Below, one piece after another: positions 43,167 to 44,525 of a stretch of 64,000 nt of DNA; the first letter of the stretch is position 1; every line of letters starts with the position of its first letter. The notes under the pieces are model-generated. The model was given only the letters and a program-made list of their open reading frames with translations. It had not been told where the DNA came from and did no database searches. A program made the translations under genes and the position numbers. The DNA is taken from assembly GCF_001488575.1 (NCBI RefSeq), contig NZ_LN831302.1:2418001-2482000 (forward strand). The letters are read 5' to 3'. Origin of the DNA: Halobacterium hubeiense (GTDB taxonomy: Archaea; Halobacteriota; Halobacteria; Halobacteriales; Halobacteriaceae).

Positions 43167-43208
43167 CCGACCGGAATCGTTTTCACCGGACTCCGACTAC
43201 CGCCGAGT

Positions 43209-43277
43209 ATGCAGTCCGCTCCCATCGGCTGGCGCTGGCGTGCTCCGGGAGCGGACAGTCTCGCCGCCGCGGCCTGA
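43209..43277 (+). CDS. Putative tryptophan leader peptide of trpS (22 codons, W-R-W)
   Basis: ATG 43209 opens a 22-codon ORF MQSAPIGWRWRAPGADSLAA plus two alanines, ending at TGA 43275. Two of the 22 codons are tryptophan (TGG at 43230 and 43236), a rare residue in the proteome. The ORF begins about 28 nt after AATCGTTTTCACC (43175-43187), so it is placed to be the leaderless first cistron of the trpS mRNA. The trpS start is 87 bp beyond the leader stop. Position and Trp content suggest ribosome stalling under tryptophan or Trp-tRNA shortage. No homologue or experimental evidence is known to me. Confidence 0.62.
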   Translation: MQSAPIGWRWRAPGADSLAAAA

Positions 43278-43294
43278 CGGGCGTCACCCGGCCG
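43214..43294 (+). promoter_or_regulatory. Hairpins of the trpS leader (attenuator-like)
   Basis: Hairpin 1 is a perfect 10-bp stem, GTCCGCTCCC (43214-43223) with GGGAGCGGAC (43247-43256); its 23-nt loop contains both Trp codons. Hairpin 2, CGGCC-TGAC (43270-43278) with GTCA-CCC-GGCCG (43283-43294), encloses the leader stop codon. A ribosome stalled at the Trp codons would open hairpin 1, whereas one that reaches the stop would open hairpin 2. There is no clear T-tract terminator, so control could act on elongation, RNA stability or trpS translation. Confidence 0.55.
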
Positions 43295-43364
43295 GGCCGG
43301 GCGCGTGGCTCCCTCGCTTCTCTCGCGCACCGCTCGCCGAGCACCAGCCACATCCACACACACA

Positions 43365-44525
43365 ATGCCAGCCGACGACACCCAGCAGGACAGCACAGAC
43401 TCCGTCACGCCGTACAGCGTCGCGGGCGACCTCGATTACGAGAGACTGCTCGCGCAGTTCGGCGCGGACGAACTGACCGACGACCAGCGACGGCGCTTCC
43501 CCGACCACCCGCTCGTGCGCCGCGGCTCGTTCTACGCGGGCCGCGACGTGGACGCCTTCCTCGACAGTGAGGAGCAGTCCGTCGTCACGGGCATCGGGCC
43601 GTCCGGGCCGATGCACCTCGGGCACGCGATGGTGTTCTACTTCGCGAAGCGCCTCCAGGACGCGTTCGGCGCGCGCGTCTACGTCCCCGTCTCGGACGAC
43701 GAGAAGTTCTGGTTCAAGGACCAGACCGCCGCGGAGACGAGCGAGTACCTCGAATCGAACCTCCGGGACCTGCTCGCGGTCGGCTTCGACCCGGAGCTGA
43801 CCAGAATCGTCGTCGACACGGAGGACGCCGACGTAATCTATCCGCTGGCGACGGCGTTCGGGCGAGACATCACGAATTCGACGCTGGAAGCGGTCTACGG
43901 CACCCCGGAGAACCTCGGGCAGGGGTTCTACCCCGCGGTCCAGACCGCGCACCTGTTGCTCCCGCAGCTCGTCCACGGCGAGCACGAGACGCTGGTCCCC
44001 ATCGCCGTCGACCAAGACCCGCACGTGCGGGTGAGCCGGGACGTGGCCGCGAAGGCCCGCTACCCCGCGACCAAGCCGGGCGCGCTGCTGATGCGGTTCC
44101 TGCCGTCGCTGGGCGGGCCGGGGAAGATGAGCAGTTCCGAGGGTGTCGCAATTCGGCTCACGGACGACGCCGAGACAGTCCGGGAGAAGGTCCGCGAGCA
44201 CGCCTACACGGGCGGCCGCGCGAGCGTCGAGGAACACCGCGAGCACGGCGGCGACCCCGACGTGGACGTGCCGTTCCAGTACCTCGCGGCGTTCTTCGAG
44301 CCGGACGACCGCGAACTCGCGCGCGTCGAGCGCGACTACCGGAACGGCGATCTGCTCTCGGGCGAACTGAAGGAGCTAGCCGCCGACCGCATCGCGGAGT
44401 TCTTGGAATCGCACCAGCGTCGCCGGAACGCGCTGGGTGACGTGCGCGAGGAACTGGCCGCCTACCGGCTCACCGACGCAGAACGCGAGCGGGCGCGGGA
44501 CGCGGTCGGCTTCCAGCGCGCGTGA
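43365..44525 (+). CDS. trpS: Tryptophanyl-tRNA synthetase
   Basis: 386 residues, class I synthetase. The HIGH-equivalent is GPMHLGHAMVFYFAKRL, the KMSKS-equivalent is GPGKMSSSEGVAIRL, and Trp-binding segments such as VYVPVSDDEKFWFKDQT and ALLMRFLPSLGG are present. Archaeal TrpRS of this type forms dimers. It lies between rio1 and the KH-domain gene, whose neighbours are normally adjacent in archaea, so it appears inserted into that cluster. It is preceded by a Trp-rich leader ORF and hairpins. Confidence 0.95.
   Translation: MPADDTQQDSTDSVTPYSVAGDLDYERLLAQFGADELTDDQRRRFPDHPLVRRGSFYAGRDVDAFLDSEEQSVVTGIGPSGPMHLGHAMVFYFAKRLQDAFGARVYVPVSDDEKFWFKDQTAAETSEYLESNLRDLLAVGFDPELTRIVVDTEDADVIYPLATAFGRDITNSTLEAVYGTPENLGQGFYPAVQTAHLLLPQLVHGEHETLVPIAVDQDPHVRVSRDVAAKARYPATKPGALLMRFLPSLGGPGKMSSSEGVAIRLTDDAETVREKVREHAYTGGRASVEEHREHGGDPDVDVPFQYLAAFFEPDDRELARVERDYRNGDLLSGELKELAADRIAEFLESHQRRRNALGDVREELAAYRLTDAERERARDAVGFQRA

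Follow-up and report, generated by a model that had tools for sequence, protein, structure and literature searches.

In Streptomyces coelicolor, the auxiliary, indolmycin-resistant tryptophanyl-tRNA synthetase (TrpRS) TrpRS1 is, according to what Vecchione and Sello are said to have reported, under attenuation. The likeness to the haloarchaeal locus described here is that the attenuator stands on a second TrpRS gene and not on the housekeeping one; the differences are another domain of life and another RNA, and there are no resistance data for the haloarchaeal TrpS2. An attenuator has also been predicted before trpS2 of Streptomyces avermitilis (PMC1262725), and these predicted Streptomyces trpS attenuators are the closest known case.

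Bacterial attenuators of trpS and trpE, of the E. coli trp type, share with the haloarchaeal element the Trp codons in a short leader ORF and, as far as folding and inference go, the mutually exclusive pairings and the control of a Trp gene, TrpRS included. The haloarchaeal element differs in that it is archaeal, has a probably leaderless start and an additional helix that parts region 2 from region 3, and lacks both a clear poly-U terminator and an Rfam match. T-box riboswitches likewise sense tRNA charging and control the matching synthetase, but they bind the tRNA without translation, whereas the haloarchaeal leader conserves a codon frame and a start codon. In E. coli tnaC and Rho-dependent attenuation, a stalled leader ribosome gates a termination factor, as access of FttA might be gated here; what tnaC senses is not the charged tRNA but free Trp, by way of its nascent peptide, and its logic is the opposite. 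As for the archaea, a paper of 2021 stated that neither attenuation nor antitermination was known (PMC8448881), and the literature, as far as it is open access, yielded no archaeal precedent.

The element lies in a stretch of 64,000 nucleotides of a haloarchaeal (Halobacterium) genome (G000:C1:2418001-2482000), called the window below. With high confidence, we read it as a ribosome-mediated attenuator of the downstream TrpRS gene, with charged tRNA-Trp as the signal that it senses, the regulation itself being inferred, with no expression data. Its parts are collected in Table 1.

Table 1. Features of the trpS2 leader region, in window positions
Feature	Position	Strand	Evidence
BRE (ccggaa) with a TATA-like TTTT, 26-38 nt 5' of the leader start	43171..43183	+	Column consensus of 117 leaders; consensus of PMC4983044
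Leader ORF MQSAPIGWRWRAPGADSLAAAA, probably the leaderless first cistron	43209..43277	+	22-codon ORF in 11/11 congeners with this trpS; homologous leader at 121/125 trpS2 loci
Arm 1 (5' arm of stem 1)	43214..43223	+	Covariation with arm 2
Two putative regulatory Trp codons within the stem 1 loop (TGG at 43230-43232 and at 43236-43238)	43230..43238	+	In-frame excess of TGG in 117 leaders
Arm 2 (partner of arm 1 or, alternatively, of the downstream tract)	43247..43256	+	Covariation; refolding; nucleotides kept where the leader frame differs
Helix 2 (AGTNTCG... with ...GCT, directly after arm 2; holds the leader stop codon)	43257..43310	+	Pair counts; RNAalifold
Pyrimidine tract (region 3), predicted alternative partner of arm 2	43311..43324	+	Refolding with arm 1 masked; duplex energy
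trpS2, auxiliary tryptophanyl-tRNA synthetase, 386 aa	43365..44525	+	NCBIfam NF008927 tryptophan--tRNA ligase

The trpS2 gene and the distribution of its leader

The product of the gene matches its family model with 533 bits against a cut-off of 478, and its named relatives at 81-90% identity are from Halobacterium, including H. salinarum DSM 3754. The same genome carries a second, distant TrpRS gene, trpS1 (G000:C1:26564-28078); the two are paralogues of about 33% identity. In Halobacterium, the housekeeping trpS1 lies directly 3' of another gene, and the Trp leader is absent there. Among 391 haloarchaeal genomes searched, trpS2 was found in 135.

How closely does the leader follow this gene? 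In each of the 11 Halobacterium species that have trpS2, the leader is 22 codons long, with WRWR at codons 8-11 in the same place, and the leader is also present in the laboratory species H. salinarum, reading MQSAPCGWRWRVRGADSFAAAA before trpS2 in strain DSM 3754. A covariance model for the leader singles out precisely those 14 of the 26 family genomes that encode trpS2 and none of the 12 that do not; two Halobacterium congeners without trpS2, one with a near-complete genome, have no leader either. Across the class, the DNA 5' of trpS2 was read at 110 further haloarchaeal loci, and at 106 a leader was found that holds one to four Trp codons between its two arms, which, with the loci of the genus, the family and G159, brings the total to 121 of 125. 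No recognizable leader precedes trpS2 at the remaining four loci (L151, L155, L156 and L157). For comparison, 117 leaders were anchored on the motif that follows arm 2.

The leader also occurs before trpS1, namely in 22 fetched genomes and in G101, and trpS2 was found in none of these. Judged from sequence, in the cases looked at each genome bears the leader on a single TrpRS gene. A second model (R2) gave about 155 strong matches in about 150 of the 391 haloarchaeal genomes, these approximate figures referring to the matches listed. In a sample of the phylum there was no strong match outside the class Halobacteria; the only match to the leader model outside the class is a borderline one (G555:C49:22629-22717, E 3e-5). 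As a separate observation, contig 6 of G236 holds a second leader (L212) followed by an apparent broken copy of trpS2.

A probably leaderless ORF with Trp codons in frame

The first-pass annotation had described a 22-codon ORF beginning at ATG 43209, with Trp codons at 43230 and 43236, and the window sequence bears this out, with the stop codon at 43275-43277. It had further suggested that a TATA-like sequence upstream makes this ORF the leaderless first cistron. TTTT at 43180-43183 lies 26-29 nt 5' of the leader ATG, TA at 43198-43199 is the -10 element, and a T-rich box is found at the same distance upstream in 11 Halobacterium species despite a differing upstream gene. When the 117 leaders are aligned on their start codon (ATG in 104, GTG in 13), the BRE and TATA bases stand at a fixed distance, the consensus being C/G/AAA at -38 to -34, T-rich at -30 to -26, and A at -11. 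The BRE, TATA and -10 elements so placed, at -38 to -33, -30 to -26 and -12/-11, agree with the published haloarchaeal promoter consensus, CGAAA / TTWT / WW (PMC4983044). Because the consensus bases line up on the leader start codon, the ORF is probably a leaderless first cistron, and transcription most likely starts at or adjoining its ATG rather than 3' of 43277, a site that would have told against the first-pass annotation, as far as promoter elements can tell in the absence of start-site data.

The Trp codons keep their frame. In the 117 anchored leaders, TGG occurs 266 times in the leader frame against 13 times in the other two frames together, and the short ORF carries one to four Trp codons in frame. 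Could the UGG triplets instead bind the CCA anticodon of uncharged tRNA-Trp without translation, in the manner of a T-box? Bacteria are known to sense tRNA directly, and UGG does sit in a loop ahead of a TrpRS gene. Nevertheless, we find this very unlikely: UGG shares one frame with the start codon, its number varies at multiples of three, and the Arg codons between the Trp codons vary at the third base (CGC 86, CGT 14, CGG 6, CGA 4). Moreover, Rfam yielded only two unrelated sub-threshold matches near the window locus, with no Trp_leader or T-box, and no match in six other leaders.

If the ORF is translated, the peptide itself might be the functional product, whether as an arrest peptide or as a small protein. 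In most species WRW and the ADS tail do look conserved; yet some groups read arm 2 in another frame (ERTVS), and the ORF may end inside loop 1 (MSTSPETDERRWR), with the RNA kept in both situations, so that we hold a functional peptide to be highly improbable. The nucleotides of arm 2 and of the following AGUNUCG are conserved even where the leader frame differs or stops earlier, and it follows that this part acts as RNA.

The position of the leader stop codon ranges from within loop 1 to within helix 2. In six leaders (L096, L120, L129, L137, L209 and L210) it follows the Trp codons immediately, still inside the stem 1 loop, an arrangement that separates Trp sensing from the translation of arm 2. 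In L098 (G193), where TGA has replaced a Trp codon, the leader is cut to MTTALEWQ, and the RNA is retained.

A covarying stem around the Trp codons

The perfect 10-bp stem reported around the Trp codons is present in the window as described. Its single-sequence case is weak, since the fold of the window leader is no better than chance for this GC-rich DNA (z -0.6). The comparison among species is more informative. Stem 1 forms 1169 of 1287 pairs, against 1072 +/- 7 when the arms are permuted among species (2000 shuffles, maximum 1096). Kinship among species inflates covariation tests by arm shuffling; column counts on 37 diverse sequences agree with the test. Across groups, G-C is exchanged for A-U, C-G for U-A, and U-A for C-G, and compensatory changes are seen within Halobacterium too. 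Stem 1 is predicted in 99 of 115 full-length leaders.

The first-pass annotation would have fallen had the Trp codons and the stem not been conserved in related genomes; in fact, the Trp codons are kept and the stem covaries across the haloarchaea, and the comparison shows that the ORF, its Trp codons and the stem are under selection. The inverted repeat from +6 to +48, strongly conserved in its arms and close to the promoter, might also be the DNA site of a repressor, with the ORF incidental. We regard such an operator as barely tenable: the distance between the arms differs greatly, with loops of roughly 14 to 60 nt, the arms covary, which a fixed protein site does not favour, and the Trp codons hold their frame. 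The loop of L045 (G019) has even received an inserted perfect hairpin, GAATCCCG/CGGGATTC, with the frame and the spacing between Trp codon and arm 2 maintained.

Helix 2, the pyrimidine tract and a predicted alternative pairing

The second hairpin of the first-pass annotation, placed at 43270-43294 around the stop codon, is real, but it is only the inner part of a longer conserved helix, here called helix 2. The latter has 936 pairs against 853 +/- 10 in permuted sets, and RNAalifold recovers it separately in most aligned groups. Directly 3' of helix 2 follows a tract, missing from the first-pass annotation, that is 85% pyrimidine. Runs of at least three T occur in 51% of these tracts and in 10% of control windows, and only 29 of 116 tracts have a run of at least four; the tract of the window itself has none above two.

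What is the role of this tract? When folding was begun at arm 2, so that arm 1 was masked as by a stalled ribosome, helix 2 remained and arm 2 was predicted to pair with the tract; in 105 of 115 leaders the pairing measure exceeds 0.3. In the window the part of the tract so paired is about 43313-43321, and the pairing falls in two adjacent registers. The mean duplex energy of arm 2 with its own tract is -11.43 kcal/mol, against -10.90 +/- 0.19 kcal/mol with swapped tracts (17 of 5000), and the own tract is also better than shuffled ones. In addition, a pairing of 8-10 pairs is found in 21 of the 22 trpS1 leaders, which had been held out when the pairing was defined. On the other hand, the covariation between arm 2 and the tract is modest, G-U pairs carry much of the pairing, and a simpler fixed-window scan lent it only weak support. 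The alternative pairing, as modelled, is probable, not proved.

Other partners were also considered. GCUCMC, which lies at the foot of helix 2, was rejected as a partner for arm 2: the complementarity is constant, there is no covariation, and it appears in few leaders on refolding. One predicted fold also hints that the Trp-codon region might pair with CCAGC ahead of trpS.

Proposed mechanism and its output

Sequence comparison shows the anatomy, the promoter position, the codon frame and the stem covariation, and folding predicts the alternative pairing; inference covers the stall at low Trp-tRNA, the direction in which control runs and the nature of the output. When Trp-tRNA is ample, the ribosome would pass the Trp codons, stem 1 would form, and the tract would be left exposed beside helix 2, where it might end transcription early, intrinsically or with the help of FttA/aCPSF1, or act negatively in some other way. 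When Trp-tRNA is scarce, the ribosome would stall over arm 1 and the loop; with arm 1 hidden, arm 2 would pair with the tract, and trpS would be expressed. Such an architecture would correspond to the 1:2 / 2:3 switch of a classical attenuator.

The geometry is compatible with this scheme. Bacterial footprints place the front edge of a ribosome with the last Trp codon in its A site at about the start of arm 2. In 69 of 117 leaders 10 nt separate the last Trp codon from arm 2, and from this spacing a stalled ribosome would be expected to lie over arm 1 and reach roughly to arm 2. Where the stop codon lies inside loop 1, leader translation can affect only stem 1, which makes the blocking of stem 1 the common denominator. 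The idea that a stalled ribosome melts hairpin 1 remains the best one on offer, but it was incomplete as first proposed, because arm 2 is probably freed to pair with the tract downstream of helix 2.

The output is less certain. We lean only slightly toward termination as against a translational effect. Many tracts are C/U mixtures with few long T-runs, which makes intrinsic termination doubtful, and the low U content leaves a translational or cleavage output possible. Could the same sensor act through the tract or the spacer on ribosome entry, or on cleavage and hence RNA stability? The U-poor tracts speak for it, as do the C/A-rich spacer of some 40-50 nt between the tract and the trpS start and the nature of aCPSF1, a ribonuclease that works with U-tracts (PMC8716108). 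Yet T-runs are clearly enriched directly 3' of a strong helix, and neither arm 2 nor helix 2 showed a conserved pairing with the start region of trpS; a translational or stability output is possible but rather unlikely. Returning to the attenuator, the points counted against it are the C/U tracts, the modest covariation between arm 2 and the tract, the four trpS2 loci without a leader, and the Trp-less copies before acetyltransferase genes that are described below. The element appears, from its sequence, to work like a leader-peptide attenuator; its output has not been shown, so it may be counted among the transcription attenuators only provisionally.

Copies before other genes, and significance

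Stem 1, helix 2 and the tract are also found before genes for GNAT (RimL-like) acetyltransferases, at L046 (G025), L047 (G024) and L204 (G172). The copies in G024 and G025 have no Trp codon; that in G172 has one Trp codon and new compensatory arms. A further element with one Trp codon stands before an ABC transporter gene (L211, G282:C1:1342560-1344360). A link of the GNAT copies to resistance against synthetase inhibitors is a guess.

In its fullest form, the proposal would make this element the first transcription attenuator with antitermination in Archaea: a leaderless leader peptide would be translated, and the ribosome stalled on it would keep a U/pyrimidine tract out of reach of RNA polymerase or FttA. 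The proposal would further include movement of this RNA between the two TrpRS paralogues and its spread to GNAT acetyltransferase and ABC transporter genes, perhaps in answer to TrpRS inhibitors. We see the chances of this whole picture as evenly balanced. If true, it would mean that transcription-translation coupling, or at least leader translation, serves regulation in archaea, and attenuation could be compared between bacterial and archaeal RNA polymerases. The haloarchaeal leader would offer a concrete and easily tested case of archaeal attenuation.
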